From Bacteroidota bacterium (GTDB lineage: Bacteria; Bacteroidota; Bacteroidia; Bacteroidales; Paludibacteraceae), in the NCBI GenBank assembly GCA_022708505.1, contig JAKIYP010000010.1, forward strand, positions 1-54,563: a stretch of DNA of 54,563 bases, given 5' to 3'. Shown one piece after another: positions 1,247 to 20,816 of this stretch (the first letter of the stretch is position 1; every line of letters starts with the position of its first letter). Under the pieces are notes generated by a model that was not told the DNA's origin, did not search any database, and saw nothing but the letters and a program-made list of their open reading frames with translations. A program made the position numbers and the translations under genes.

Positions 1247-2509
1247 ATGAAATACATTTTTAAATTCCCCGACATCGGTGAGGGCCTCGAAGAAGGCACC
1301 ATCCTCGAAGTTTACGTGAAAGTCGGTCAGACCGTGAAAGCGGGTGATTTGCTGGTGAACATGGAAACCGACAAGGTGGCGGCGGATATTCCTTCTCCGA
1401 AAGCAGGTAAGATTATCCGCATCTTCGGTAATGTGGGGGATGTGATTCATGTCGGCAAACCACTTGTGGAACTGGAGTTAGCCAATGGTGAGTCCGCACA
1501 GGATGCTTCTGCTGAAATGTCTTCTGAAGATGAAGGTGCTGCCGGCGTGGTGGGTACCATGGAAATGGCGGATGTAAATGCAGTCCTGCCCCCGAGCGAT
1601 GAAGCTTATGCTTCCACTGAGCAAATAAAGTCTTCACCCAAAGCCTTTGCGACTCCGCATGTCAGGGCCCTGGCCAAAGAGCTGGACATCGACATCAACC
1701 TGGTTAACGGTACCGGACAGGGTGGCCGGGTGACCAAAGAAGACATTGAACAGTATGTGGCGAAGCAAAGTCCGGTTGAAAAAGCTTTCTTTGCACAGGT
1801 GTACGAACAGGAAGATGTGACCTACGAGCCCTTGACGCAGATTCGCAAGACCATAGCGCGCAATATGATCAATTCGAAGCACAACGCTGCGCATGTTACT
1901 GTACTCGAGGAAATAGAAGTGTCGGAGTTGATTGCCATCCGCGAGAAGTACAAACAACCATTTGCCGAGCGGGGAGCAAAGCTGACTTACCTGCCTTTCA
2001 TTGTTAAAGCTGCCGTTCAGGCTTTGAAAAAGCATCGTATCATGAATTCGCAGATGGATATGGAGAACAACCGGATGATCTACAAGAACCGGTATAACAT
2101 CGGTATAGCGATGGATACGCCGGAGGGATTGGTGGTGCCGGTGATACAAGATGCCGACCGGTTGAGTATCTTCGAAATCAGCCAGAAAATTACTGAGTTT
2201 ACTGTTAAGGCACAGGAAAGAAAATTGACAATCGACGACATGAAAGACGGAACTTTTACCATTACCAACTTTGGTGCGATCAGTGGAATCTACGGAACGC
2301 CGGTTATCAATTACCCGCAGGCAGGCATTCTGGGTGTGGGGCGCATCGTGAAACAGCCGGTGGTTAAAGACGATCAGATTGTTATTGGCTACGTGTTGGG
2401 TTTATCACTTACTGTCGATCATCGCATTGTGGATGGTGGCGATACCGCCCGCTTTGTAAGGCAGGTGATGGATCATTTGTCAGATCCTGTTTCTTTGCTG
2501 ATGGAGTAA
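1247..2509 (+). CDS. 2-oxoacid dehydrogenase E2, dihydrolipoamide acyltransferase
   Basis: A 420-residue E2 with all three expected modules. The single lipoyl domain (residues 2-78) has its lipoylated lysine at K43 in METDKVAAD. It is followed by a linker rich in Glu, Ala and Ser, then a peripheral subunit-binding domain (about 135-172, FATPHVRALAKEL). The catalytic acyltransferase domain (about 190-420) ends in the active-site motif DHRIVDGG, with His392 and Asp396. It accepts the acyl group from E1 and passes it to CoA in the core of the dehydrogenase complex. E3 is not in the window. A 135-bp spacer of repeats separates it from E1 beta, but the orientation fits one operon. Confidence 0.95.
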   Translation: MKYIFKFPDIGEGLEEGTILEVYVKVGQTVKAGDLLVNMETDKVAADIPSPKAGKIIRIFGNVGDVIHVGKPLVELELANGESAQDASAEMSSEDEGAAGVVGTMEMADVNAVLPPSDEAYASTEQIKSSPKAFATPHVRALAKELDIDINLVNGTGQGGRVTKEDIEQYVAKQSPVEKAFFAQVYEQEDVTYEPLTQIRKTIARNMINSKHNAAHVTVLEEIEVSELIAIREKYKQPFAERGAKLTYLPFIVKAAVQALKKHRIMNSQMDMENNRMIYKNRYNIGIAMDTPEGLVVPVIQDADRLSIFEISQKITEFTVKAQERKLTIDDMKDGTFTITNFGAISGIYGTPVINYPQAGILGVGRIVKQPVVKDDQIVIGYVLGLSLTVDHRIVDGGDTARFVRQVMDHLSDPVSLLME

Positions 2510-2527
2510 CATTAAAATTGAGATAAT

Positions 2528-3169
2528 ATGCACAGGGACATTGCCGACATCAGAATTAATTATTCCAAACAAAGCCTGGATGAAAAAGACGCTGAAAAGA
2601 ATGCTTTCGATATGTTTGAGCGTTGGTGGAACGAAGCGATGGAGTCTGAAATAGCAGAAGTCAACGCCATGACATTAGCCACAGTCAACAATGGCATTCC
2701 CAATGCCCGTGTCGTGTTGCTTAAGGCTTTCGATGAACGTGGTTTTGTGTTTTTTACGAACTACAACAGCCAGAAAGGAACTGAGCTGAAAGAAAATCCG
2801 AATGTATGTCTGGTCTTTTTCTGGAAAGAGATGGAAAGACAAATCCGCATCACCGGCGTTGCCGAGAAAACTACAATACAGGAAAGTATCGACTATTTCA
2901 ACAGTCGCCCCGACGAACATAAATTAGGTGCCTGGGCTTCGGCGCAGAGTCTGGTTGTGGCCGGAAAAGGTTTTCTGAAAGAGACATTTGATTATTATGC
3001 CGAACGATTTAAACGTGGTGCCATCCCAAAACCACCACATTGGGGCGGATATCGGGTGAGACCTACTTCCATCGAATTCTGGCAGGGGCGTCCCAATCGT
3101 TTACATGATCGCTTGCTGTATACCCTGCAGGAGGGTGGGGAGTGGAAGATAGAGCGGTTGCAACCTTGA
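2528..3169 (+). CDS. pdxH: pyridoxamine/pyridoxine 5'-phosphate oxidase
   Basis: A 213-residue protein close to the length of E. coli PdxH. It has the FMN-binding split-barrel with ARVVLLKAFDERGFVFFTNY and SQKGTEL, and the C-terminal PdxH dimerisation region ending RPNRLHDRLLY. It oxidises pyridoxine or pyridoxamine 5'-phosphate to the coenzyme pyridoxal 5'-phosphate, using FMN and oxygen. It starts 18 bp after the E2 gene and may share its transcript. The TGA stop (3167-3169) lies inside the first unit of a repeat array. Confidence 0.95.
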   Translation: MHRDIADIRINYSKQSLDEKDAEKNAFDMFERWWNEAMESEIAEVNAMTLATVNNGIPNARVVLLKAFDERGFVFFTNYNSQKGTELKENPNVCLVFFWKEMERQIRITGVAEKTTIQESIDYFNSRPDEHKLGAWASAQSLVVAGKGFLKETFDYYAERFKRGAIPKPPHWGGYRVRPTSIEFWQGRPNRLHDRLLYTLQEGGEWKIERLQP

Positions 3170-3346
3170 CTTGATTTCCAACTTGATTCTTTCAAGCAAC
3201 TTTAGTGAAAAGATGAAAACCTAAGACTATCCCAACTTTATTCTTAACTTGATTCTTCCAATCAACTTCAGTGATTGGCAACCTCCAGCACCTGAGCTCC
3301 CTAACTTTATTTATAACTTGATTGCTACAAGCAACTTCAGTGCAGA
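3167..3346. repeat. array of AACTTGATT...CAACTTCAGTG units (left array)
   Basis: Three imperfect tandem units of roughly 65-70 bp sit between pdxH and the convergent unknown gene. Each unit carries AACTTTATT or similar, then AACTTGATT, a small TTGATT/AATCAA-type dyad in some copies, and CAACTT(C/T)AGTG at the end. The array begins at the pdxH stop codon. It runs into the stop codon of the opposite gene, whose TGA is read from the CACTGAAG word of the last unit. Matching arrays lie on the other side of that gene (4783-5207). Confidence 0.85.
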
Positions 3347-4731
3347 TAGCCAAACAGTCCTTTCTCCTTAATCCGCTGATACACCCCCTCCGGCACATAC
3401 TGCGCCAGCCTGACATCACCGGACTCAATCAACTGTGTAATAAACTCGGTCGTTATACCCGTATCATTGGATGAAATTGTTTTCAGTATCAGAATCTTTC
3501 CGGTAAGATTAAGATATTGCCATAATAGTCGGATATCAGCCTGGAAATGAGCATCATCGGGATAGATAATTTCCCCGGTATCTGTATTAAGGGAAGGATA
3601 AAGGTATACCTTCACGTTGTCTTCGAATAAAGCGCCCATCATTTGGAGAATACCCCCGCGCAGGTCGGTGTAGCTGGTATGGTCAAGTACCTTGTCGAAT
3701 GTAGGCAAGCCCATCACGATGCGTAGCTTGATGATGCGAAACTGTCCGAAATAACGCACCAGTTCGAAGTATCGCTGGAAACGGGAGACCATTACACTTT
3801 GTCCCATGAGGTTGAGCAGATCGACCCGGTGGAGAAAATCCTGTTCGTCTACTTCTTCACCCCGCATCAGGTAGTTCAGCGAAATCTCACAAAAAGCAAT
3901 TGTGTTTTCAGGCGTATAATCCTCATCCCGTTTAAAAACCTGCAAACTGTCCTCGATGAATTTCATACCCAGGTTGGTGATAGGGCGAAAGTACCCCCTG
4001 GTCAGCAGGATGTTCTTCTTGTACAGCATCTCCCCCGGCTGTATGACCCGCCCCGTTTTATCGAACATAATGGCCGGAGTCATGTTGTTTTTTACCAGCA
4101 TCAGGTTGAGGATGCGGTTATCCACCTTGTTCATATCCGGACCTTCGGTATGAATGTAATCAATTTCCAGCCGGTCGGTATCTAAGTTATCCAGTAAACT
4201 GAGGAGAATGTTAACCGGATTTTCACACCCGAATAGTCCCCCGTAGATCAGGTTGATTCCTAAAGTTCCGAGCGTATATTGTTGTAATAGAGTGTCGTTC
4301 TCAAGTAACTTAATATGAACCAGCACTAAATTGGGGTGGTAGCGGTCGCTCCCTTCAGCCATGATGCCCAGCCAGCCGTTTCCCTGATTGGTTTTAGAAA
4401 AGTTAATGGTTTCAACCGTATTAGCAAAAGCGAAGAATTTTTGCTGATTTTTCTTGTCTAAAATTTTAATCAGTTCATCGTATTCATACTGCACCATTTT
4501 GCGCAGCCGTTCTTCCGCCACGTATCGCGAGGGTTGTCCTTCGTTGTAAAAATAATCGCTGAACAGCTTATCGTATGCCGAAACCGTTTTTGCTACAGTA
4601 TTCGAAGCCCCGCCGGCCTGAAACAGATGTCGCGCCGTTTCCTGTCCGCCGCCAATTTCAGCAACAGTGCCGTAGTATTTACTTTCGATGTTTATCTTGA
4701 CTGCTTTTTCTTTGGTGCTGAGTATCTTCAT
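3337..4731 (-). CDS. conserved protein of unknown function (464 aa)
   Basis: A long, well-formed cytoplasmic-looking protein with no signal peptide or membrane segment. Its N-terminus (SKYYGTVAEIGGGQETARH) belongs to a conserved family that I recall as common in Bacteroidota and some other bacteria. Family members often carry unreliable database names such as nucleotide adenylyltransferase or TonB receptor. I see no P-loop, Rossmann or other catalytic motif that would support an activity, so no function is given. The start is ATG at 4731. The stop lies in a repeat unit, and repeat arrays in opposite orientation flank the gene on both sides. It is probably a single-gene transcript. Confidence 0.85.
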   Translation of the reverse strand: MKILSTKEKAVKINIESKYYGTVAEIGGGQETARHLFQAGGASNTVAKTVSAYDKLFSDYFYNEGQPSRYVAEERLRKMVQYEYDELIKILDKKNQQKFFAFANTVETINFSKTNQGNGWLGIMAEGSDRYHPNLVLVHIKLLENDTLLQQYTLGTLGINLIYGGLFGCENPVNILLSLLDNLDTDRLEIDYIHTEGPDMNKVDNRILNLMLVKNNMTPAIMFDKTGRVIQPGEMLYKKNILLTRGYFRPITNLGMKFIEDSLQVFKRDEDYTPENTIAFCEISLNYLMRGEEVDEQDFLHRVDLLNLMGQSVMVSRFQRYFELVRYFGQFRIIKLRIVMGLPTFDKVLDHTSYTDLRGGILQMMGALFEDNVKVYLYPSLNTDTGEIIYPDDAHFQADIRLLWQYLNLTGKILILKTISSNDTGITTEFITQLIESGDVRLAQYVPEGVYQRIKEKGLFGYLH

Positions 4732-4782
4732 AGAGGGTGTGTTGATAAAAATACGATGAAAGTATAACGCTTAGGCAGGTAA

Positions 4783-5207
4783 AATGTTTCAATCAAGTTT
4801 AGAATCAAGTTAGGGGAGTGAGGTGGTGGAGGCCTATCACTAAAGTTGATTGAGAGAATCAAGTTGGGGGTAGTCTTAGGGATTCATCTCATCACTGAAG
4901 TTATTTGTTGCAATCAAGTTGTTAATCAAGTTGGGGTAGTCTTAGGCATTCATCTCTCACTGAAGTGGTTTGTTTCAATCAAGTTAAGAATCAAGTGCCT
5001 GTTTGTTGAACAGAAGCTGTTTCTTTAATATCACACAAACTTCATCTCTAACTTGATGCTCTCAATCAACTTCAGTGATGAGAAGTCGTACCCACTTGCA
5101 TACCTAACTTTATTCTCAACTTAATTCTTCCAAACCACTTCAGTGACAGACCATCCTCCACCTCACCCCCCCCTAACTTGATTGCCACAATCAACTTCAT
5201 TGGAAAT
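4783..5207. repeat. right arrays of the AATCAAGTT/AACTTGATT repeat in both orientations
   Basis: This 512-bp gap (4732-5243) is mostly repeat. About 4783-5010 holds units in the reverse sense to the left array: CACTGAAGTT, a short dyad, AATCAAGTT, AATCAAGTT, often followed by GGGGTAGTCTTAGG (seen twice). About 5038-5207 holds units in the same sense as the left array (AACTTGAT...CAACTTCAGTG). The last copy, ending CAACTTCATTGG, runs directly into the sirtuin promoter. No open frame here is credible. Confidence 0.85.
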
Positions 5208-6055: not shown

Positions 6056-9019
6056 ATGATAACATACCATCACACTATACCATTCAATCAATTAAAAACC
6101 ACCTTTTCAGGTGATTTATACACCGACAATATTCATTTGTCAATTTACGCCACGGATGCATCACCTTATCGGCAATTGCCACTGGCGGTTGCTTATCCGA
6201 AAGATGCTAATGATATAAAGGAACTGATACGTTTTGCACGGAAGCAAAAAGTCAGTTTGATTCCGCGGACGGCAGGAACGTCACTGGCCGGACAGGTAGT
6301 TGGTGAAGGCATGATAGTGGATGTGTCCCGGTACATGAGCGGTATCATCGAACTGAATATCGAAGAAAAATGGGTGAAAGTTCAACCGGGTGTGATTTTA
6401 GATGAGCTGAACAAGTTTTTGGCGCCACACGGATTGTTTTTCGGACCGGAGACTTCCACGTCGAATCGCTGCATGATAGGCGGAATGGTGGGGAATAATG
6501 CCTGCGGAGCACATTCGTTGATTTACGGTAGCACGCGTGACCACCTTCTTAGTGTAAAAGTATTGCTTAGCGATGGTAGTGAAGTGGTCTTTGAATCTGT
6601 TTCTATCGGAGAATTTGAGGAGAAATGTATGGGTGACAAACTCGAAAATCAGATTTACCGTCAGTTAAAAGAGATACTTTCCAATCCGGAGAACCAGCAG
6701 GAAATCAGGGAGCAGTACCCCGATAAACAACTTCGTCGCCGTAATACCGGCTACGCAATTGATATATTGCTTGATTCGGCACCTTTTACGCCCGATGCTC
6801 CGGACTTGAATGTGGCTAAGTTAATTGCCGGGTCGGAAGGTACTCTGGCCTTTATCACCGAAATAAAACTGAATCTGGTGTCACTTCCGCCTAAAATCAA
6901 AGGCGTGATGGCGGCACATTTCGAAACACTGGAAGATGCTCTGGAAGCCAATCTGATTGCGTTGGAATTTAAGCCGGGAGCAGTGGAGATGATGGACAGA
7001 ACCATCCTGGAATTGACGAAAGATAATATTAGCCAGCAACCCAACCGCTTTTTCTTGTCCGGTAATCCTGAAGCCATCCTGATTATTGAGTTTGCACGAG
7101 AAACCAAGGAGGAGATCGAAGATATTTGTCAGCAGATGGAAGCTAAACTGCGGGCACGTGACCTCGGCTTCCATTACCCGGTTATCTGGGGAAAAGACAT
7201 CAACCGAATCTGGAATCTACGCAAATCTGGACTGGGTGTGCTTTCTAACATGAAGGGAGATGCCAAACCGGTGAGTCTGATTGAAGATACGGCTGTTCCG
7301 GTGCACAATCTTTCAGCTTATATTGCTGAGTTCAAACAACTGTTGGCAAGTTACCGGCTTTCCTGTGTGTATCATGCCCATGTAGGAACCGGTGAGTTAC
7401 ACTTGCGACCGGTGCTGAACCTGAAACTCAAAGAAGATGTGAAAATCTTCCGGGAACTCGGGACTAAAGTTGCTTTGCTGGTAAAAAAGTACAAAGGTTC
7501 GCTGAGCGGGGAACATGGCGATGGTCGCCTGCGTGGTGAATTTATCCCATTGATGGTCGGCAAAAAAAATTACGAACTGCTCAAACAAATTAAGCAAACC
7601 TGGGATTCTGACAATATCTTTAATCCCGGAAAGATTACCGGTACGCCCCCGATGGATACCTCCCTGCGGTATGAACCGGGACTGCCGACACGCGAGATAG
7701 AAACCATTTTCAATTTTAGTTCCGAGATGGGTTACATGCGGGCGGTTGAGAAGTGTAATGGTTCGGGTGATTGCCGGAAAACCGAGATCACGGGCGGACT
7801 GATGTGCCCGAGTTACATGGCTTCGCGCGATGAACAGCAAACAACCCGTGCCCGAGCGAATATCTTGCGGGAGTATCTGACTCATTCTACCAAACAGAAC
7901 CCGTTCGACCACGAAGAAATTTACAAAGTGCTCGATCTGTGCCTTTCCTGTAAAGGCTGTAAATCCGAATGTCCTTCGAATGTGGACATGGCCAAACTGA
8001 AAGCGGAGTTTCTGCAACATTACCACGATGCTAACGGAGTCCCCTTGCGTACGAAACTGATTGCCAATATTAATGGTCTCAACAAGATAGGTTCGAAATT
8101 ACCTGCGTTGACCAATTTCATTTTAGATAAAACTGTCTTGCCTTCGTTGCTGGGCTTTACGCCGGAAAGAAAACTGCCTTTGCTCGCCAATCAAACTTTC
8201 AGCAGTTGGTATAAAAAGCATTATCCGGTTTTAGTGAAATCGGCCAAACTGAAAAAAGGGAAGAAGGTCTATTTATTTAATGATGAATTTACCAATCATT
8301 ACGATGTAGAGCTGGGTCAGAAAACCGTGAAGTTGCTGGTTGCGCTTGGTTATGAAGTCATTATTCCCGAACATGTTGAAAGTGGCCGGGCTTTCATTTC
8401 AAAAGGATTAATCCGGAAAGCAAAAAAAATAGCTGAAAAGAATGTACGTTTGCTGAAAGATGTTGTATCGAAAAAAACACCTCTGGTCGGAATTGAACCT
8501 TCATCCATTCTTTCTTTCCGGGATGAATATCCGGATTTGGTGGAAGCCTCTTTGCGTCACGAAGCCAGACAATTAGCCGGTCATACTTTCTTAATCGATG
8601 AGTTTATCGTGCAGGAGTTCAAAGCAGGCAGCATTGATGCAGCCTCTTTTCATGAAGAGGAAAAGAACATCAGTCTGCATTGCCACTGTCATCAGAAAGC
8701 CATTGCTTCTTCTCAATCGACATTGGATATGCTTTCTATCCCTAAAAATTATCATGTCACCGAAATACCTTCGGGCTGTTGCGGTATGGCCGGGTCCTTC
8801 GGGTACGAAAAAGAACATTACGAACTCTCGCAGCAAATCGGGGAATTGGTGTTGTTTAAACAGGTCGAACAGTTACCTGATAATACGCTGGTGGTGGCGC
8901 AGGGCACCAGTTGTCGCTCGCAGATTAAAGATGGGACAAAAAGGGAGGCATTGCATCCTGTGGAGGTGTTGTTTGGGGCGCTTATTTCCTCTTCCTCAAC
9001 CACAAATAATACCCTGTAA
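6056..9019 (+). CDS. fused FAD-linked oxidase and Fe-S (CCG domain) oxidoreductase, D-lactate dehydrogenase-like
   Basis: A 987-residue fusion. Residues ~1-560 form a GlcD/D-lactate dehydrogenase flavoprotein: a PCMH-type FAD-binding domain with IPRTAGTSLAGQVVG and NNACGAHSLIYGSTRDH, and a C-terminal cap with HAHVGTGELHLRP and LSGEHGDGRLR. Next is a ferredoxin-like segment with CNGSGDCRK and CLSCKGCKSECPSN, probably two Fe-S clusters. The last third has the cysteine-rich CCG motif GCCGMAGSFGYE, as in LldE, GlpC and heterodisulfide reductase. The protein probably oxidises a 2-hydroxy acid, such as D-lactate or glycolate, and passes electrons to the quinone pool at the inner face of the membrane. 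The exact substrate is unknown. Its 3' end overlaps the convergent PepSY gene by 38 bp. Confidence 0.92.
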   Translation: MITYHHTIPFNQLKTTFSGDLYTDNIHLSIYATDASPYRQLPLAVAYPKDANDIKELIRFARKQKVSLIPRTAGTSLAGQVVGEGMIVDVSRYMSGIIELNIEEKWVKVQPGVILDELNKFLAPHGLFFGPETSTSNRCMIGGMVGNNACGAHSLIYGSTRDHLLSVKVLLSDGSEVVFESVSIGEFEEKCMGDKLENQIYRQLKEILSNPENQQEIREQYPDKQLRRRNTGYAIDILLDSAPFTPDAPDLNVAKLIAGSEGTLAFITEIKLNLVSLPPKIKGVMAAHFETLEDALEANLIALEFKPGAVEMMDRTILELTKDNISQQPNRFFLSGNPEAILIIEFARETKEEIEDICQQMEAKLRARDLGFHYPVIWGKDINRIWNLRKSGLGVLSNMKGDAKPVSLIEDTAVPVHNLSAYIAEFKQLLASYRLSCVYHAHVGTGELHLRPVLNLKLKEDVKIFRELGTKVALLVKKYKGSLSGEHGDGRLRGEFIPLMVGKKNYELLKQIKQTWDSDNIFNPGKITGTPPMDTSLRYEPGLPTREIETIFNFSSEMGYMRAVEKCNGSGDCRKTEITGGLMCPSYMASRDEQQTTRARANILREYLTHSTKQNPFDHEEIYKVLDLCLSCKGCKSECPSNVDMAKLKAEFLQHYHDANGVPLRTKLIANINGLNKIGSKLPALTNFILDKTVLPSLLGFTPERKLPLLANQTFSSWYKKHYPVLVKSAKLKKGKKVYLFNDEFTNHYDVELGQKTVKLLVALGYEVIIPEHVESGRAFISKGLIRKAKKIAEKNVRLLKDVVSKKTPLVGIEPSSILSFRDEYPDLVEASLRHEARQLAGHTFLIDEFIVQEFKAGSIDAASFHEEEKNISLHCHCHQKAIASSQSTLDMLSIPKNYHVTEIPSGCCGMAGSFGYEKEHYELSQQIGELVLFKQVEQLPDNTLVVAQGTSCRSQIKDGTKREALHPVEVLFGALISSSSTTNNTL

Positions 9020-13147: not shown

Positions 13148-13543
13148 ATGGCTGTTTTTTATAACAAGGTGCAACGGAAGAATCCTTCCGACCCTAACGC
13201 GACTGCAAAGTGGTATCCCTCGCTTCGTACCACCGGCATGCTGAAAGAGAAAGAAGTGGCACGTCAGATTGCCGATGAAACCACGCTGAACCCGAAAGAA
13301 GCCGAAATGGCGCTTTCGCAGTTACAAAAGATCATGCTTCGTGCGCTGCACAACGGACAGTCCATTCAGTTGGGCGACTGGGGTTCGTTTCACCTCACCC
13401 TGAATGCCGAAGGAGCAGAAAACGAAGCCGATGCCAACGCGATGAAGGTGAAGAAAGTCAACATCCGTTTCGCCCCGGGCAAGGAGCTGAAAGAATCCAT
13501 CGCGAAGATTGAATTGCGGCAGACCAGCACCCTGATCAGCTAA
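13148..13543 (+). CDS. HU-family DNA-binding protein (Bacteroidota type)
   Basis: A 131-residue HU/IHF-like protein. It opens with the MAVFYNKVQRKNPSDP strand typical of Bacteroidota HU-related proteins, continues with the helical dimerisation region (VARQIADETTLNPKEAEMAL), and includes the HU-fold word LGDWGSFHLTLN. The C-terminal part is extended relative to E. coli HU (90 residues). It is expected to bind and bend DNA as a dimer in the nucleoid. It is a stand-alone gene with a strong terminator directly downstream, followed by the 22-bp-period array. Confidence 0.9.
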   Translation: MAVFYNKVQRKNPSDPNATAKWYPSLRTTGMLKEKEVARQIADETTLNPKEAEMALSQLQKIMLRALHNGQSIQLGDWGSFHLTLNAEGAENEADANAMKVKKVNIRFAPGKELKESIAKIELRQTSTLIS

Positions 13544-13606: not shown

Positions 13607-13608
13607 GC

Positions 13609-13845
13609 AAATACTGTTTTAGTCGTGGCGAAGTCCTGTTTTTGTTTTCGCCAAATACTGTTTTAGTTGACGCCAAGTCCTGATTTGTCCGAACGCAAGT
13701 CCTGTTTTCGTCATGCCAAAGTCCTGTTTTGCATTTCACCAAGTCCTGTTTTGTCTCCGGCGAAGTCCTGTTTTCACTGAAGTCAAATCCTGTTTTGGGA
13801 AAACACAAGTCCTGATTTGCCCTTAACTACTTCAAATCCTGTTAT
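13609..13845. repeat. 22-bp-period array of a conserved 12-bp word (11 copies)
   Basis: Ten copies of AAGTCCTGTTTT (variants AAATACTGTTTT, AAGTCCTGATTT and AAATCCTGTTTT) start at 13609, 13631, 13653, 13675, 13697, 13719, 13741, 13763, 13785 and 13807, exactly 22 bp apart. An eleventh, weaker copy (AAATCCTGTTAT) starts at 13834, 27 bp on. The 10-bp spacers all differ, though most end in GCC, GCG or ACC. The array begins 3 bp after the T-run of the HU terminator. A 22-bp step is not a multiple of three, so it does not look coding. It is close to two helical turns, so all copies face one side of the DNA. Confidence 0.95.
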
Positions 13846-14601
13846 CTGCCATTTTTGGTATGTTGTCAGTACATGACAAAATTTCCTGACACTTAAATAA
13901 TCTAAATTGTTTACCCTTAACAGGGTTAAATTGTTTTTACTAGTGCTAATGAATGTGATTAAAACGGCACTTGCAGCGGGATATAATACATTTTTATTTA
14001 GCTAATATGCAGGTAAGTGATTAAAAATGAAAGAAAATTGGGGGTGTGAGTTAAAATTATCAAAATTTATTTTTATGTTTGTAAGCTGAAATTTCTACGG
14101 ATGAAATGTTAACCGGATGGTCTGATGGTGATGCGCGCAAGTGTACTTTTTCTGGGGTTGCGCGTGGGGAGGGATGGTGGTTGGTTTGGATTATTCTTAT
14201 GAAGATTATTGGAAATTGGTTAGAGAGGCAATTTTTTGTATGTGTAATAATCATACATGATGATTTTTATTATTCCCTTATACTTTAATGAATTAGAATT
14301 TAATATAAAGCGAAAATATGAACAATGAGTTGGGCATACAGGAAATTGAGTTGGAGATATTTAGGTGTTACCGCCAAGTGTAAGAGACCGAAACAAACAG
14401 ACAATTGGCAACTTAAAGACAGAAAAAGAAAATCGAAATAATGAACAGCCGACGCACAAACCAACACATTTGCAAGCCCCGACACATAAGCCGATTCTTC
14501 AGCTTGCAAAAGAGTTGTTTTCTTGCCGACGCACCGTCTGTAATTAAGCATTATACAGATTTAAACAAAAGTTATAACCTAATAAAAAATATGGATAGCA
14601 A
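13846..14601. other. AT-rich intergenic region leading into the island
   Basis: No convincing gene. A dyad TTGTCA-GTACA-TGACAA lies at 13863-13879. A second dyad at about 13910-13930 (TTTACCCTTAACAGGGTTAAA) is bordered by direct repeats of TAAATTGTTT. From about 14365 the plus strand becomes C/A-rich (ACCGCCAAGTG, CCGACGCACAAACC). This resembles the gap at 17021-17337 and may be a cassette boundary. Short open frames here (14106-14288, 14365-14547) show no coding features. Confidence 0.55.
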
Positions 14602-15066
14602 ATGTGGCCTTTACTAATTGGAGCTGGAGCAGTCGCCCTTCTTCTAAAAGAACTTTTTGAGGACGAAGTAGATTCTGGCAAAGAAATAAAATAACGCATC
14701 TTTATCAGTTTCGCTTATGAAGACGAGCAATACAGAGATTATTTGGTTGCACAGGCGAAAAATGAAAGGTCGCCATTTTCCTTCGTTGATATGTCAGTTA
14801 AACAACCGTGGGACGAAAAAATATGGAAACAAAAGTGCCGCACTAAAATAAAATCCTGTGATGGAATGATTGTTCTTTTAAGCAAAAATACATGGCATTC
14901 AAGTGGCGCAAGATGGGAAATTAAGTGTGCAAAAGAAGAAGGTATTCCGGTTCTTGGAATGCATATTAAAAAGAATGACCAAGGAGCAATCCCGCCCGAA
15001 TTAAAAGGAAAAAATATAATCACTTGGTCATGGGATAATTTGGCAAACGTAATTAAGAAAATATAA
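14602..15066 (+). pseudogene. TIR-like (ThsB/DUF1863-type) protein interrupted by an in-frame TAA
   Basis: One continuous frame runs from ATG 14602 to TAA 15066, broken only by TAA at 14692-14694. The first piece is a 30-residue membrane-anchor-like peptide (MWPLLIGAGAVALLLKELF). After the stop the frame resumes with RIFISFAYEDEQYRDYL, the first strand of a TIR-like fold. It continues with SPFSFVDMSVKQPWDEK, CDGMIVLLSKNT and GARWEIKCAKEEGIPV, where the W-E pair holds the likely catalytic glutamate. The gene at 16649 aligns along the whole domain (FIAFAIEDEKQRDLL), so strand A belongs to the protein. A restart at TTG 14743 would lose it. A one-base change (AAA to TAA) would explain the break. 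The next gene starts 1 bp after the final stop. Confidence 0.8.
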
Positions 15067-15067
15067 T

Positions 15068-15661
15068 ATGGGAATATACAGCAGTACATACTTAAAAAAC
15101 CTTGCGTCAACAAAGCAGAGATTGTTTGAAAACAAAATGTTTAGTGCTCGTAATGCACCAGTAACAACGAAATTTGACATTTTCTTATCTCATAGCTTTC
15201 TAGATAAAACAGAGGTTCAAGGTTTATATCAAGAATTAACTGATTTTGGATTTTCAGTTTATGTTGATTGGATAGTTGACCCACATCTTGATAGGGCAAA
15301 TGTTACTAAAGAATCTGCAACTCTTGTTAGAGAAAGAATGAAAAATTCCAGAACACTGCTACTCGCTATTTCGACAAATGCGACAATGTCTAAATGGATA
15401 CCATGGGAACTAGGTTATGTTGATGGAAATACTAATAAATGTGCTATAATTCCAGTATCTAAAGAAAGTACTCCACCTAAATCATTTAAGGGTGCTGAAT
15501 ATCTAGTATTATACCCGTTTATAAAAAAATTACCTGTTAAAGACACCAATGAAGATAAGTTATGGGTAATCCAAAGTGAATTTTCTTATTCTCAATTCGA
15601 TTCATGGATAAATACAGGGCTAATTATGGAAAACCGAAACGTTAATATTTTTACATTATGA
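15068..15661 (+). CDS. TIR-domain protein, candidate signal-producing NADase
   Basis: A 197-residue soluble protein with a TIR fold. The first strand is FDIFLSHSFLDK (residues 36-47), followed by GFSVYVDWIVDPHLDR and SRTLLLAISTNA. SKWIPWELGYVDG comes next; E114 after W113 is the conserved position expected to be catalytic in NAD-cleaving TIR proteins. It starts 1 bp after the interrupted TIR-like frame and shares an ATGA overlap with the caspase gene, which suggests coupled translation. TIR enzymes of defence systems turn NAD into cyclic nucleotide signals after phage infection. That role is inferred from the operon, not shown by the sequence. Confidence 0.88.
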   Translation: MGIYSSTYLKNLASTKQRLFENKMFSARNAPVTTKFDIFLSHSFLDKTEVQGLYQELTDFGFSVYVDWIVDPHLDRANVTKESATLVRERMKNSRTLLLAISTNATMSKWIPWELGYVDGNTNKCAIIPVSKESTPPKSFKGAEYLVLYPFIKKLPVKDTNEDKLWVIQSEFSYSQFDSWINTGLIMENRNVNIFTL

Positions 15662-16629
15662 GAAAAGCACTTGTTGTAGGTATAAATAGCTATCCCAATG
15701 CAGTATTATATGGATGCATTAATGATGCTTCTGCATTCGGAAACACATTGGAAACTAATGGAGATGGCTCTCCTAATTTTGATGTTCGTTTGCTAACAGA
15801 TGTTCCAACAAAGGGAGAGTTAAAAGGTCGGATTAAGGAACTTTTTGCAGGTGATTGCGAAACGGCTTTATTTTATTTTTCTGGTCATGGTTTTTTTGAC
15901 GAAACTGGAGGTGGTATTATTGTCACTCCTGATTTCAAGGCAAATGATGAGGGTATTTCAATGGATGAAATACTGAACATTGCAAATGAATCAAAAGCAA
16001 AAAATCGTGTAATCATTTTAGATTGTTGCCATTCAGGTGCATTTGGTACACCAAAATTTGGTGGAAATCAAAATGCACAGATTGGAGAAGGAGTTTCGAT
16101 TCTTACTGCAAGTAAGGATGACGAACCATCTGTTGAAGTGAACGGTCATGGTATTTTCACAAATTTATTATTGGATGCTTTACAAGGTGGAGCAGCTGAT
16201 TTGAGAGGACATATTACTCCAGGTAGTATATACTCTTATATTGACCAAGCACTTGGCCCATGGGACCAACGACCAGTATTTAAAACAAATATTACAAGGT
16301 TTACATCATTAAGAACTGTTTCACCTCAAGTAGCACCTGATATTTTAAGGAAATTAATACAATATTTTTCTTCACCAGAAGAGCAATTTAAACTTGACTC
16401 TTCATATGAATTTACGAACGACCCAGCCATAGAGCATAACTTCTTAGAACCATACGCAAATGAAAAAAATGTTTCAGTTTTTAAGGACTTGCAAAAATTG
16501 GCAAGTGTTGGTCTTGTCGTTCCCGTTGATGAACAACACATGTATTTTGCTGCTATGAATTCGAAGTGTTGTAGGCTCACCGCACTGGGTTATCATTATT
16601 GGAGACTTGTAAAAGATAAAAGAATTTAA
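15658..16629 (+). CDS. caspase-like cysteine protease with C-terminal extension
   Basis: A 323-residue protein with a peptidase C14 (metacaspase/caspase) domain in residues 1 to about 225. It has KALVVGINSY, the catalytic His77 in YFSGHGFFD, and the catalytic Cys124 in LDCCHSGAFG. The remaining ~100 residues (226-323, ending LTALGYHYWRLVKD) look like a small helix-rich domain, perhaps winged-helix. This could be the regulatory or ligand-sensing part. No signal peptide or membrane segment is seen. Its ATG overlaps the TIR stop (ATGA). In type IV Thoeris a TIR-made nucleotide activates such a protease, which degrades cell proteins and stops the phage. The same role is likely here but untested. 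Confidence 0.9.
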   Translation: MRKALVVGINSYPNAVLYGCINDASAFGNTLETNGDGSPNFDVRLLTDVPTKGELKGRIKELFAGDCETALFYFSGHGFFDETGGGIIVTPDFKANDEGISMDEILNIANESKAKNRVIILDCCHSGAFGTPKFGGNQNAQIGEGVSILTASKDDEPSVEVNGHGIFTNLLLDALQGGAADLRGHITPGSIYSYIDQALGPWDQRPVFKTNITRFTSLRTVSPQVAPDILRKLIQYFSSPEEQFKLDSSYEFTNDPAIEHNFLEPYANEKNVSVFKDLQKLASVGLVVPVDEQHMYFAAMNSKCCRLTALGYHYWRLVKDKRI

Positions 16630-16648
16630 CCATTAAAATTAAATAATT

Positions 16649-17020
16649 ATGGCAGACAAGAAAGTAGTATTTATTGCATTTGCAATTGAAGATGAAAAAC
16701 AAAGAGACTTATTGAAGGGTCAATCACTAAACACCAAATCACCATTTGAGTACATTGATATGTCCGTAAAAGAACCCTACGACAAGGATTGGAAAGAAAG
16801 AGTTAGGACAAGAATTAAACGTTCAGACGGTGTGATTGCTCTTGTAAGTAAAAATTCTCTTAAATCAAGCGGACAAAAATGGGAAATCCAATGTGCCAAA
16901 GAAGAAGGAAAGAAAGTAAGAGGAATCTGGGCATACACAGATGACAGAACCGACTTAGAAGGTGTATATACAAGGGTTTGGACTTGGGACAACATAAAAG
17001 ACTTTATTGATTCTCTTTAA
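16649..17020 (+). CDS. TIR-like (ThsB/DUF1863-type) protein
   Basis: A 123-residue single-domain protein: KKVVFIAFAIEDEKQRD (strand A and following loop), SPFEYIDMSVKEPYDK, SDGVIALVSKNS, and GQKWEIQCAKEEGKKV with the conserved W-E pair. It ends VWTWDNIKDFIDSL. It is clearly related to the interrupted TIR-like frame at 14602-15066 and less so to the TIR protein at 15068. It lies 19 bp after the caspase stop in the same direction. Thoeris loci often carry several TIR genes that answer to different phages, so it may be a second sensor. It has no membrane anchor, unlike the interrupted copy. Confidence 0.87.
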   Translation: MADKKVVFIAFAIEDEKQRDLLKGQSLNTKSPFEYIDMSVKEPYDKDWKERVRTRIKRSDGVIALVSKNSLKSSGQKWEIQCAKEEGKKVRGIWAYTDDRTDLEGVYTRVWTWDNIKDFIDSL

Positions 17021-17337
17021 GCCCACGCTTCACAGCCACACTCATTGCCAAGCCTCACGAGCCAGCGCTAAAGCCAAAGCTTGTCAAAGAGTGTGTCTGT
17101 CCCAACGCACGGCAGACAGAAACGAAGTGGCAAATTGAAAGAGAAATGACTGAATACAATAAACACCAGGCGGTAATACGCGGTATAAAATATTGGGGTT
17201 TAAGTGGTTATTCGAGCGTTCTGCCCCGCATCAAGTTCAGTTAACTGGACAGGATATTAGCCCGCACTCCCCAACGATTTCATACCGCCATCCGTTAGGT
17301 GGCATATTAAAAAAAAGAAAAACAAAATCGACAACAA
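17021..17337. other. non-coding spacer after the TIR/caspase operon
   Basis: A 317-bp gap. The first half is C/A-rich on the plus strand (CCCACGCTTCACAGCCACAC, CCCAACGCACGGCAG). The second half is the long inverted repeat listed separately (17165-17305). The open frame at 17193-17411 crosses that repeat and the next gene start and is not credible. Confidence 0.6.
17165..17305. repeat. long imperfect inverted repeat, attC-like recombination site candidate
   Basis: GCGGTATAAAATATTGGGG (17180-17198) pairs with the complement of 17269-17288 (GCGGTATGAAATCGTTGGGG) with one mismatch and one bulge. The centre is a near palindrome, GTTCAGTTAACTGGAC (17235-17250). The right end reads CCGCCATCCGTTAGGTGGC, in which GTTAGGT fits the GTTRRRY core of integron attC sites. 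A clear matching left core (RYYYAAC) is not seen, so the attC reading is tentative. It could instead be a structured RNA or terminator-like element. Confidence 0.55.
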
Positions 17338-17859
17338 ATGAAAATATCTCACATAATCGTTACGACATTGACTATGAGCATTATTTTAGCTTGTGCTCCA
17401 AGACAAGATAAAAATGCAGAAAACTTGACTGAAATTTATAGTTTAATGTTTAAAGATGCCTTGAAAAATCAAACCACAGCTCCCGATTTTGTAGTTTATA
17501 TAGCGAAAAACAGCAAAACTGGTGAATCGAAAGAAATTTGCACAACGACTGATGACTTATACTCAGGGGAAATAGTTGATTATAAAACAAGAACTGTTGT
17601 CTTTTCTGACAAAGATCATAAACGAATTGGTGCTCAGACATACGATAATAAGCTTGTTGACAGTATATTTAATTCTCTAAAAAAGACTAGTATAGACTCA
17701 ATCATAAAAGAAAATAATGAATTAGGATATTCAAAAACTTTAGAACACTACTCAACTAAATATTCCACAGGATATTTTGAACACGTGCTTTATCGAAATA
17801 GAATTCTTACAAATCGTGACTGTGAATCAGGTTATACTGTAGTAAAGAAAATCTATTGA
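17338..17859 (+). CDS. hypothetical lipoprotein
   Basis: A 173-residue protein with a lipoprotein signal peptide and a lipobox ending IILAC at about residue 19, so it is predicted to be lipid-anchored in an envelope membrane. The mature part (EIYSLMFKDALKNQTT..., ending YTVVKKIY) matches no family I recognise. It follows the attC-like element by about 30 bp, as a cassette gene would. It is AT-rich like the rest of the island. Confidence 0.75.
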   Translation: MKISHIIVTTLTMSIILACAPRQDKNAENLTEIYSLMFKDALKNQTTAPDFVVYIAKNSKTGESKEICTTTDDLYSGEIVDYKTRTVVFSDKDHKRIGAQTYDNKLVDSIFNSLKKTSIDSIIKENNELGYSKTLEHYSTKYSTGYFEHVLYRNRILTNRDCESGYTVVKKIY

Positions 17860-18466
17860 TATTTGTGAAAAAAAAGTCTTTTCAACCATTAAACTTGACA
17901 ACTGGGAACTCTCAAAGGTTGTCTCTGAATCAGCACTAAATGAGTTACAAGAAGAAATAAATAATACAACTGGACTAACCAAGATTTCAGAAATATTTAA
18001 TTGTGATGGAAGTGACGCAAGAAGAATAAAAGACTTTTGGGATAATAGAACCAATTGGCAACGGTGTAGAGAATGTAAATTTAAATGGAAAGAATGTTTT
18101 GACTGTGTCATTAAATGTGAAAGTCCTCTGGAAAGAGACTTGTTGTTAGAACTTCGGAAAAAGAGTATTATGGCAGTGATGCAAAGAAGAATTAATAAAG
18201 ACGGAACATACTATGACTTCCCGAAAAGTATTGACTTTGATAATCTTTTGACGATTCCAGATTTTTATATTGAAAAAAACGATATTAAACTATGTGTTTA
18301 TGCCGATGGACACACCTATCATGAAAGGACAGAAAAACAAGCACTCAGAGACAGAAATATCGACAGAGAATTACAACGAATAGGTTTTACTGTATTAAGA
18401 TATACAGGACAAGAAATTCGTAAGAACTGTGAACTTGTTGTTGAAAATATAATGAAGAATCTATAG
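17846..18466 (+). CDS. PD-(D/E)XK/DUF559-like nuclease, start missing or unusual
   Basis: An open frame runs from 17846 to TAG 18464-18466, but the first ATG in frame is at 18170. The conserved protein clearly begins earlier. The upstream part encodes a cysteine cluster (CRECKFKWKECFDCVIKC) and SPLERDLLLELRK, the usual entry helix with Glu of Vsr/DUF559 nucleases. Downstream come LLTIPDFYIE and KLCVYADGHTYHERTEK, giving an E...D...D-x-G active-site pattern, then IGFTVLRYTGQEI at the end of the fold. Either it starts at an ATT near 17855-17861, or it has lost its 5' end by recombination. It overlaps the lipoprotein frame by 14 bp. Confidence 0.65.
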   Translation, partial: RKSIDICEKKVFSTIKLDNWELSKVVSESALNELQEEINNTTGLTKISEIFNCDGSDARRIKDFWDNRTNWQRCRECKFKWKECFDCVIKCESPLERDLLLELRKKSIMAVMQRRINKDGTYYDFPKSIDFDNLLTIPDFYIEKNDIKLCVYADGHTYHERTEKQALRDRNIDRELQRIGFTVLRYTGQEIRKNCELVVENIMKNL

Positions 18467-18662
18467 GTTAAATGCTAGACAATAAAAACAAACTAATCAC
18501 AACAAGTTGCTAGCCCATACATACACACGTTTATGTTCACAGACTGGCTTACGCGCACTTAGCAGGTTTTACGCCCAAATTCACTTTGTTGCTGTGTGAT
18601 AATGAATATGTTCTAATCATCTAGTTTACATATACCAACTGTTAAAAATTAAATACATCAAT

Positions 18663-19556
18663 ATGGAATTACCAAAATACCACGAAACTTTTATTCCAAT
18701 TCTGCAAACATTAAATTCAGCAGAATCCCTTAAAAGCAGAGAATTAGCAATTTTAGTAAGAGATAAGTATTATTCTCAATTACCGGATGAGTTGCTAAAA
18801 CAAAAAACCACCTCAGGTGCAAATGTGCTACTTGACAGAATCCTTTGGGGTAAATCATATCTGAGGATGGCAAAATTTGTTTCGTATCCCAAACGAGGGC
18901 TTGTTCAAATAACAGAGAAGGGTAAACAGCTCTTAGCATCAGGAGTGTTGACCTTAAGTGATCTTCAAAACGACCAGGACTTTATATTTCATAGAGAGTC
19001 AGTTCGAACTACAAAAGAAAATCATATAGAAGTTGAAAATGTCAAGGTTGAAAGTGCTTCACCACAGGACCTGATTGATTCTGGATTTACAAGCATTGAA
19101 AAGGAAGTAAAGACTGAGCTTTTAGAAAAACTCAAAGAAATTGATCCCTATTATTTTGAAAAAGTTATCCTGATTCTTTTAAAAAAGATGGGATATGGTG
19201 ATTATGTTGAAACTTCAAAATCGGGTGATGGAGGTATAGATGGAATAATTAATGAAGATAAGTTGGGGCTTGAGAAAATATATACGCAAGCAAAACGCTA
19301 TAGTGAAAATAAAATCCGAGAAAAGGATATTAGAAATTTTATTGGCGCTATGAGTGGTGATACAACTAAAGGAGTTTTCATTACAACATCTACTTTCGAT
19401 GAATCTGCCATTAGAAAAACAAGAGAAGCACATCATACGATTATTTTAATTGACGGGACTAAGTTAGTTGATTTAATGCATCAGTATAATGTTGGTGTGC
19501 AGGTGAAAACTGTTTACGAGGTGAAAGAAATTGATAACGACTTTTTTGAAGAATAG
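18663..19556 (+). CDS. mrr: Mrr-type restriction endonuclease
   Basis: A 297-residue protein with both Mrr modules. An N-terminal winged-helix domain (residues 1 to about 90: VLLDRILWGKSYLRMAKFV, GLVQITEKGKQLL) recognises DNA. A C-terminal Mrr_cat domain (about 160-290) has MGYGDYVETSKSGDGGIDG and IYTQAKRY, which together form the D...QxK active site of this PD-(D/E)XK subfamily. Mrr enzymes cut methylated foreign DNA and need no partner methylase; none is present nearby. Non-coding spacers lie on both sides (18467-18662 and after 19556), so it looks like an independent unit of the island. Confidence 0.93.
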   Translation: MELPKYHETFIPILQTLNSAESLKSRELAILVRDKYYSQLPDELLKQKTTSGANVLLDRILWGKSYLRMAKFVSYPKRGLVQITEKGKQLLASGVLTLSDLQNDQDFIFHRESVRTTKENHIEVENVKVESASPQDLIDSGFTSIEKEVKTELLEKLKEIDPYYFEKVILILLKKMGYGDYVETSKSGDGGIDGIINEDKLGLEKIYTQAKRYSENKIREKDIRNFIGAMSGDTTKGVFITTSTFDESAIRKTREAHHTIILIDGTKLVDLMHQYNVGVQVKTVYEVKEIDNDFFEE

Positions 19557-19695
19557 ATGCTCACACCTCATAACTACATATTGTATCAAGGAGTAAGTCT
19601 TCTCCTGTGTGAGAAACTATAAAATTCTTCTAGATAGTCTGATAACAAAATGTATTCAAAACAATGAATCAAAAACATCAAAATACAAATACATT

Positions 19696-20139
19696 ATGAA
19701 AAAAGGTTTAATATTTTTAGGAGGTTTTGTTGCTGGTATATTGGCAACAATATTAGTAGCATATTTTATTACAATAGCAAACAAACCTAATGATGGCGGT
19801 TTAGTTGGACTTACATTATTCCCGGAAAAGGGAGAATGTATAACAACAACATTAAAAAACAAATCTTGTGAGATTAAAATTTTTCAAGTTCTTGCACCAA
19901 ATGCTGCATTGGGAAATATCAAATACTATACGGATGAAAAAAGATTTGGTGGTAAAACATACCGCAATTATGATATATTAAATGATGTAGTTGTTTTGCT
20001 TATAAATTATGACAACAAAACATATTATGACGACCAAAAAATAGACATATCCAATAAATGTGCGAGACAAATAGGTACATATCAATATACAACCAAAAGT
20101 GAATTTGAAAAAACTGTTCCTGCAATTGTTATTGAATAA
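19696..20139 (+). CDS. hypothetical membrane-anchored protein
   Basis: 147 residues from ATG 19696. A GTG at 19609 would add 29 residues ahead of the membrane segment and is less likely. A single N-terminal helix (GLIFLGGFVAGILATILVAY) is followed by an extracytoplasmic domain with three cysteines. I recognise no family. It precedes the HNH gene by about 20 bp in the same direction, and both have N-terminal membrane helices. They could form a pair, but this is only context. Confidence 0.65.
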   Translation: MKKGLIFLGGFVAGILATILVAYFITIANKPNDGGLVGLTLFPEKGECITTTLKNKSCEIKIFQVLAPNAALGNIKYYTDEKRFGGKTYRNYDILNDVVVLLINYDNKTYYDDQKIDISNKCARQIGTYQYTTKSEFEKTVPAIVIE

Positions 20140-20162
20140 CTTCAAAAATCAGAAACTAAAAT

Positions 20163-20465
20163 ATGCAGGCATTTATCTTATTGCTTTTTGTAATAGCAGT
20201 ATTGGTTTTAAAACATTTTGTCTTTGAATACAAGCGTAAGCAAAGACGTGATTATTACAGAAATGAATATTTGAAGTCAGATGCATGGCAACGGAAAAGA
20301 TATGTAGTATTAAAACGAGATAATTGGCGTTGTATTTATTGCGGCGCACGTGCCACACAAGTCCACCACAAGCGATATGCAAAACGAAACATTGGCAAAG
20401 AACCGATTGATTGGCTTGTTTCAGTTTGTGAAAACTGCCATAATTTAATACACCATGAACATTAA
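20163..20465 (+). CDS. membrane-anchored HNH endonuclease
   Basis: A 100-residue protein. A hydrophobic helix at residues 2-20 (MQAFILLLFVIAVLVLKHF) is followed by a basic linker. A compact HNH domain comes next: WRCIYCGARATQVHHKRY, then SVCENCHNLIHHEH, with two CxxC zinc knuckles and the HH...N...H catalytic pattern. HNH domains cleave DNA. A membrane anchor on one is unusual and would place the nuclease at the inner membrane, perhaps where phage DNA enters. It probably shares a transcript with the membrane protein before it. Confidence 0.85.
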   Translation: MQAFILLLFVIAVLVLKHFVFEYKRKQRRDYYRNEYLKSDAWQRKRYVVLKRDNWRCIYCGARATQVHHKRYAKRNIGKEPIDWLVSVCENCHNLIHHEH

Positions 20466-20531
20466 AAGTATTGCACGACAAAATCCCTATCGTGTATGCA
20501 CTAACAGCGATAAAAATAAAGAAATAGCGAA

Positions 20532-20816
20532 ATGGAAACTTCAAGATTTAACATATCAGACTACTTGGATAATAATGAAATGATTGCAGAATATCTTAAT
20601 ACTGTATTAGCAGAAGGAGATGACTCAGAGGTGATTGCTGCAATTGGACATATTGCAAAATCAATTGGTATGACCAAAATTGCACAGGAGACAGGATTAA
20701 GCAGACCGAGTTTATATAAAGCATTATCAGAAGGTTCAAAACCTCAATTTGACACAATAATGAAAGTGTTGAGAGCTATTGGGGGTCAAATACAAATCAA
20801 CCCAATGACTGCTTAA
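20532..20816 (+). CDS. HigA-type antitoxin (addiction-module antidote), no toxin seen
   Basis: A 94-residue protein. An N-terminal region (NISDYLDNNEMIAEYLNTVL) typical of the addiction-module antidote family is followed by a helix-turn-helix (MTKIAQETGLSRPSLYKAL). Such proteins neutralise a RelE/HigB-like ribosome-dependent RNase encoded next to them. Here the upstream neighbour is the HNH gene, the 66-bp gap has no toxin frame, and downstream the island ends at once. The antitoxin therefore appears orphaned. Its TAA (20814-20816) directly abuts the stop codon of the opposite-strand receptor remnant (20817). Confidence 0.82.
   Translation: METSRFNISDYLDNNEMIAEYLNTVLAEGDDSEVIAAIGHIAKSIGMTKIAQETGLSRPSLYKALSEGSKPQFDTIMKVLRAIGGQIQINPMTA

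Follow-up and report, generated by a model that had tools for sequence, protein, structure and literature searches.

Type IV Thoeris, reportedly introduced by Rousset et al. (Science 2025), is said to consist of one or more TIR genes and a caspase-like protease gene in one operon, and a 2026 paper is said to deal with a phage sponge against TIR-caspase signalling. The literature on type IV Thoeris and TIR-caspase systems, taken with the founding paper and the 2026 phage-sponge paper outside the scope, yielded no multi-TIR type IV operon. The accessible part of PMC12847820 describes type IV TIR and effector genes as sharing a common operon, with N7-cADPR activating the caspase-like protease, upon which cellular proteins are degraded.

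Multiple thsB genes per operon are already known, and in the accessible part of PMC7272460 several thsB genes are given for over half of Thoeris systems. In the Staphylococcus aureus system, the phage major head protein is bound by ThsB1, which recruits the cyclase ThsB2. The signal is produced in the active site of ThsB2, that of ThsB1 being unneeded, whereas in the related system of S. equinus ThsB1, not ThsB2, is the enzyme (PMC12578639, accessible part). In the reported tests, Bacillus cereus MSX-D12 could do without its upstream thsB (PMC7272460), and each ThsB of the Bacillus systems is considered most likely to act independently in the available text of PMC11204291.

The window, i.e., the whole stretch of 54,563 nucleotides analyzed here, was assigned to the type IV architecture from its gene content, the published type being taken as citing papers describe it. 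Like that type, it combines TIR genes with a caspase-like protease gene in an operon and has the His-Cys dyad and the TIR glutamate, and it differs in having two intact TIRs of two subfamilies and a broken third. As far as the available part of the source describes the S. aureus ThsB1/ThsB2 system, both have two different TIR proteins (here TIR2 and TIR3) beside one effector, but the S. aureus effector is a STALD-domain NADase whereas that of the window is a caspase, and the S. aureus ThsB1 is longer (41.8 kDa tagged), the window pairing being known as co-occurrence of genes. The MSX-D12 system also has one effector with a thsB upstream and a thsB downstream, mutually only 18% identical (PMC7272460, accessible part), but its effector is Sirtuin/SLOG-like. 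The reading preferred here, with a probability of about 0.5, is that the operon is a horizontally acquired anti-phage TIR-caspase system of the type IV Thoeris kind, in which TIR2 would detect, TIR3 would signal and the caspase would kill.

Operon layout and the interrupted first TIR frame

Region 14602-17020 of the plus strand is a tight array of a TIR-like frame, a TIR gene, a caspase gene and a second ThsB-type TIR gene, with the following features:

14602..14694, plus strand: TIR1 N-terminal piece, 30 residues with a hydrophobic stretch, in-frame TAA at 14692-14694
14695..15066, plus strand: TIR1 domain of the ThsB_TIR type, broken frame (PF08937, 5.8e-15; 91% identity to L004)
15068..15661, plus strand: TIR2, intact, TIR_2 type, 197 aa (PF13676, 2.9e-08; PADLOC ThsB1 profile PDLC00422, 2e-48; 8btn_B, 5.8e-42)
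15658..16629, plus strand: caspase-like protease, 323 aa, with His77 and Cys124 (PF00656, Peptidase_C14, 5.9e-18; PADLOC caspase profile, 2.6e-20)
16649..17020, plus strand: TIR3, intact, ThsB_TIR type, 123 aa (PF08937, 7.4e-09; sole TIR beside a caspase in 6 of the 13 TIR3-clade rows)

The first-pass annotation had described four consecutive plus-strand frames; their order and tight packing held, and the first frame turned out not to be intact. The overlap of the TIR2 and caspase frames by ATGA (4 bases) and the 19 bp gap between the caspase and TIR3 were confirmed by the coordinates. Gene order and Pfam matches agreed with the earlier description of a type IV Thoeris-like operon that joins a caspase to multiple TIR genes of two TIR subfamilies. 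Two intact TIR genes, TIR2 and TIR3, plus a broken third are thus placed around one caspase, and the functional set in the window is probably TIR2, the caspase and TIR3. PADLOC ThsB profiles matched all three TIRs, with a strong match for TIR2. In a sequence search of solved structures, TIR2 was related to 8btn_B, the best match of TIR1 reached only 0.12 and TIR3 gave no match. Neither a SIR2-type effector, the mark of type I Thoeris, nor a transmembrane macro-domain effector, the mark of type II, was found by Pfam among the four operon proteins.

In the frame 14602-15066, the 30 residues are followed by the TAA and then by the TIR domain, and use of the next start (ATG/GTG/TTG) past the stop, TTG at 14743, would cut off the beginning of the domain. 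In seven relatives (L004, L005, L007-L010 and L142), a similar hydrophobic N-terminus, possibly a membrane anchor, runs into the TIR domain with no intervening stop, and the TIR1-type frame of L022 is also free of a stop at the corresponding place. The TIR1 domain is 91% identical to that of L004 and 89% to that of L005, two loci with no TIR2 between TIR1 and the caspase, and differs from L004 by 14 non-silent and 50 silent changes. For the TIR1 domain, caspase and TIR3 compared with L004, pN was 0.036-0.047 and pS 0.64-0.72, with silent sites near saturation. Because the domain still has few amino-acid changes relative to L004, the stop is either recent or an error, and the TAA may stem from the sequencing or assembly of the draft genome (149 contigs, 75% complete).

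The earlier proposal of up to three sensors is not supported, because of this in-frame stop. Three working TIRs would require the TAA to be such an error or to be read through; the amino-acid change of the TIR1 domain is as low as that of its neighbours and L022 has three stop-free TIR frames beside its caspase, as would be expected, but the TIR1 type has been broken in other ways in two more lineages (L006 and L106/L130), so that its loss recurs, and this explanation is considered quite improbable. In total, TIR1-type genes are broken in 3 of 11 loci (the window, L006 and L106). In L006, the gene is reduced to a 3' remnant directly upstream of TIR2, and therefore the order TIR1-TIR2-caspase-TIR3 was once present in the Algoriphagus faecimaris lineage too. 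In L106/L130, the TIR1-type gene contains several stops. The TIR1 type is thus one that decays repeatedly. A search of viral contigs for the TIR1 type gave no match. In L130 (genome G481), the TIR1-type sequence with several in-frame stops, at 2920-3490, adjoins an intact TIR-caspase pair.

Linkage of the caspase family to TIR genes

The caspase family was surveyed in 85 loci, comprising the window, 64 genome-contig loci, 6 viral-contig loci, 4 genomes with a caspase relative from among 394 other Bacteroidota genomes, and 10 plasmid records. The latter were taken from 54 plasmid records in which tblastn detected a caspase relative; the other 44 of the 54 and 2 phage records were left out. Linkage was counted by profiles as chains of same-strand TIR genes lying no more than 300 bases from the caspase, with the reservations that L061 matched only weakly for its second TIR and L063 has its caspase split over two frames.

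The caspase was accompanied by one TIR gene in 56 loci, two in 17, three in 2 and none in 10. The first-pass annotation had named separation of the caspase and TIR genes in homologous loci as an observation against it; the opposite was found, 75 of the 85 loci having a TIR that adjoins the caspase (74 of 84 with the window set aside). This linkage and the few amino-acid changes against many silent ones relative to L004 indicate an arrangement beyond chance. Among the 85, only this window and the locus of Lacibacter luteus have three TIRs, and each of the six loci closest to it (L004-L009, caspase 81-93% identical to that of the window) has two. Among the ten loci counted as TIR-less, five (L035, L037, L064, L066 and L067) have a partial caspase frame only, in L034 and L059 Pfam assigns a TIR_2 domain to a downstream protein, and in L012, L028 and L030 no TIR was placed in the operon by the profiles used.

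In the Taibaiella locus L028, a DUF1508 (YegP-like) gene at 6344-6676 comes after the family caspase, and no TIR gene was found in the scan of this locus. By eye, L030 and L034 show the same arrangement of a caspase followed by a DUF1508-like gene.

The intactness of His77 and Cys124 noted earlier was corroborated by the alignment of 65 family members, in which the two residues are conserved in 63/63 and 64/64 of the rows with a letter at the position. The C-terminal domain (about residues 220-323) is conserved throughout the family. In a fold comparison, the caspase domain showed the caspase fold, with likeness to MALT1 paracaspase and plant metacaspases, whose matches barely cover the C-terminal domain (about 223-323). 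The sequence search of solved structures gave weak metacaspase matches only (best 0.0033), and the score for the NCBIfam family caspase_w_EACC1, 106.7 bits, was below the cut-off of 140. The caspase family is widespread and patchy over phyla and plasmids.

Co-occurrence of TIR types and the proposed division of labour

The TIRs were divided into an A-type, ThsB_TIR-like, and a B-type, TIR_2-like. The TIR-domain glutamate, taken from the alignment to be the catalytic residue, is kept in 85/85 A-type and 12/12 B-type rows, and Glu114 of TIR2 is invariant in 8/8 TIR2-type rows. The tree of ThsB-type TIRs included 84 of 85 rows, the dropped row being a piece of the broken L106 gene of less than 110 aa, and with few columns many of its forks are unresolved. 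The TIR1 clade (8 rows, support 100/99) comes entirely from multi-TIR loci. Of the 13 rows in the TIR3 clade, 6 come from caspase operons with no other TIR, including L099, whose contig stops just after the caspase and leaves the downstream gene out of view.

The TIR1 type occurs together with another A-type (ThsB-type) TIR in 11 of 11 loci, i.e., the 8 tree rows, the L006 remnant, L106/L130 and L142. Similarly, all 14 TIR2-type loci have an A-type or PF08937 gene nearby; nine are caspase operons (the window, L006, L020, L022, L032, L036, L108, L117 and L144) and five are not (L127, L128, L129, L141 and L143). L141 is the one TIR2-type locus met in viral contigs, and among the 78 plasmid matches of TIR2 the neighbourhood was looked at for L117. 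Kept outside the 14 were L015, L031 and L114 (another B-type subfamily), L045 (on the opposite strand, with 35% identity to TIR2) and the fragment of L012. As a background, a hand count in 103 other Bacteroidota genomes showed that 13 of 122 TIR_2 matches have a PF08937 match in another gene no more than 5 kb away. These associations suggest that the TIR1-type and TIR2-type proteins may be accessory partners working with a ThsB-type cyclase.

Several observations speak against pairing. The loci are related by descent, and A-type TIRs sit in most caspase operons, so that their presence alongside TIR2 carries little weight there. L012 is a counter-case, having a 37-residue TIR2 fragment (70% identical) by the caspase and no A-type TIR found. 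L015 has no TIR on the strand of its caspase except a B-type one of another subfamily, but the contig ends 119 bp upstream.

In L012, the region 3734-4947 contains the TIR2 fragment and then, immediately before the caspase, a 367-residue frame resembling DUF4062 by eye, which had no Pfam match at 1e-3. A swap of the TIR for a TIR-like NADase is a possible explanation of this locus.

The first-pass annotation had envisaged one protease wired to up to three sensors. On such a model of independent sensors, each TIR, of which two are intact here, would read its own phage cue and signal by itself, with the caspase as a shared killer. This is the reading deemed most likely for Bacillus Thoeris in the available text of PMC11204291, and it agrees with the glutamate kept in every A-type and B-type row and with the six TIR3-type rows in which that TIR is sole with the caspase. 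It is weakened, because the TIR1 and TIR2 types were found only with another ThsB-type TIR, the L012 fragment apart (never the sole TIR in 11/11 and 14/14 loci, respectively), and the paired TIRs of S. aureus act as a complex according to the accessible part of PMC12578639. Independent sensing is therefore regarded as a serious yet rather unlikely alternative.

A further alternative is that TIR3 and the caspase form the whole working system, TIR2 being as dispensable as TIR1 now is. The same six rows (with the L099 contig ending after the caspase), the breakage of TIR1-type genes in 3 of 11 loci and the dispensable upstream thsB of MSX-D12 (PMC7272460, accessible part) would fit this explanation. 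Against it speaks the state of TIR2, which is intact, is conserved relative to L006 (pN 0.080, pS 0.491) and holds the same slot in five operons of the order B-type TIR, caspase, A-type TIR. Such a reduced system appears improbable.

A division of labour between TIR2 as sensor or recruiter and TIR3 as enzyme is preferred, because a ThsB-type TIR able to stand alone with partners never found alone matches the division of labour in S. aureus. The choice of TIR3 rather than TIR2 as the enzyme is a guess, since ThsB1 and ThsB2 have swapped roles in S. equinus, and TIR2-type proteins may themselves make a signal, the catalytic Glu being kept. For sensing, pairing, signal chemistry, protease activation and cell death, we infer the following course. 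TIR2 would detect the infection and then recruit or activate TIR3, which, as a ThsB_TIR-type protein, would convert NAD+ into a cyclic ADP-ribose isomer. This isomer would turn the caspase on, perhaps via the conserved C-terminal domain, and the active caspase would break down cell proteins, so that the phage would be halted and the cell lost. TIR1 would be an alternative partner TIR, broken in this genome.

Genomic setting and exchange of parts

The operon lies in a stretch of low G+C content that also contains defence-like genes, the latter located past the operon at 17860-20816:

13830..20816, no strand assigned: low-G+C stretch with the operon and defence-like genes (G+C 0.341-0.351 vs 0.458 on the left and 0.428 on the right)
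18140-18466: DUF559 nuclease frame, fragment-like
18663-19556: Mrr-type restriction enzyme
20163-20465: HNH gene
20532-20816: addiction-module antidote-like gene

Among the matches listed for 198 related genomes, only the caspase domain was covered, none extending beyond query residue 238. Because no full-length caspase relative appeared among these matches and the G+C content is low, the operon was probably gained horizontally. A regulated cell-death or housekeeping operon without a role in phage defence is hardly credible, given the scattered distribution over phyla and plasmids, the lack of a full-length relative among those same matches, the low G+C and the restriction-type neighbours.

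Downstream of the gene at 13148-13543, direct repeats with units of about 22 bases around AAGTCCTGTTTT were observed at 13607-13826. An integron cassette was considered, as 17165-17310 is attC-like by eye, and was rejected; five intergenic stretches fold no clearly better than shuffles (z of -0.75, -0.93, -1.96, +1.33 and -1.03). No above-cut-off match to the integron integrase TIGR02249 was found in the window's genome, and weak matches occurred also in 14/14 control genomes. On the low-G+C stretch, Rfam gave one match, under the gathering score, and ARAGORN detected no tRNA.

The TIR of Collinsella sp. An7 (L057) shares 82% identity with TIR3, whereas the caspases of the two loci share 51%, and therefore the TIRs and caspases have separate histories. 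Combinations with other genes were also seen, a TIR1/TIR3 pair and pairs containing TIR2 lying next to membrane-type proteins in loci that lack the caspase. In L142 (genome G330), region 2508-4231 contains a TIR1-type gene, then a gene for a ThsB_TIR and 8xMP membrane protein and then a TIR3-like gene, the caspase being absent. L127, L128, L129, L141 and L143 have TIR2-type and ThsB_TIR genes with small proteins without a Pfam match, and no caspase. Four of these five share one layout (TIR2, small protein, ThsB_TIR gene), three of the four having been scanned for the small protein's lack of a Pfam match, and because of this common layout the four are not independent. The non-caspase TIR2-type loci are possibly another Thoeris-like type.

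It is tentatively proposed that TIR1-type and TIR2-type proteins could be interchangeable sensors, silent alone, placed beside a ThsB-type cyclase in a cassette joined to varied killers (the caspase and membrane proteins including 8xMP), with the parts exchanged separately. If so, Thoeris types would be combinations of a sensor TIR, a cyclase TIR and an effector. Within one caspase family, nature provides test sets with the TIR3 type alone, TIR1 with TIR3, TIR2 with TIR3 and three TIRs, and the TIR pairs joined to other effectors provide further ones. These sets bear on the question whether several TIRs beside one effector sense independently or pair up as sensor and enzyme, and if pairing is true, Thoeris types could be described by their sensor, cyclase and effector modules, not by the effector alone.
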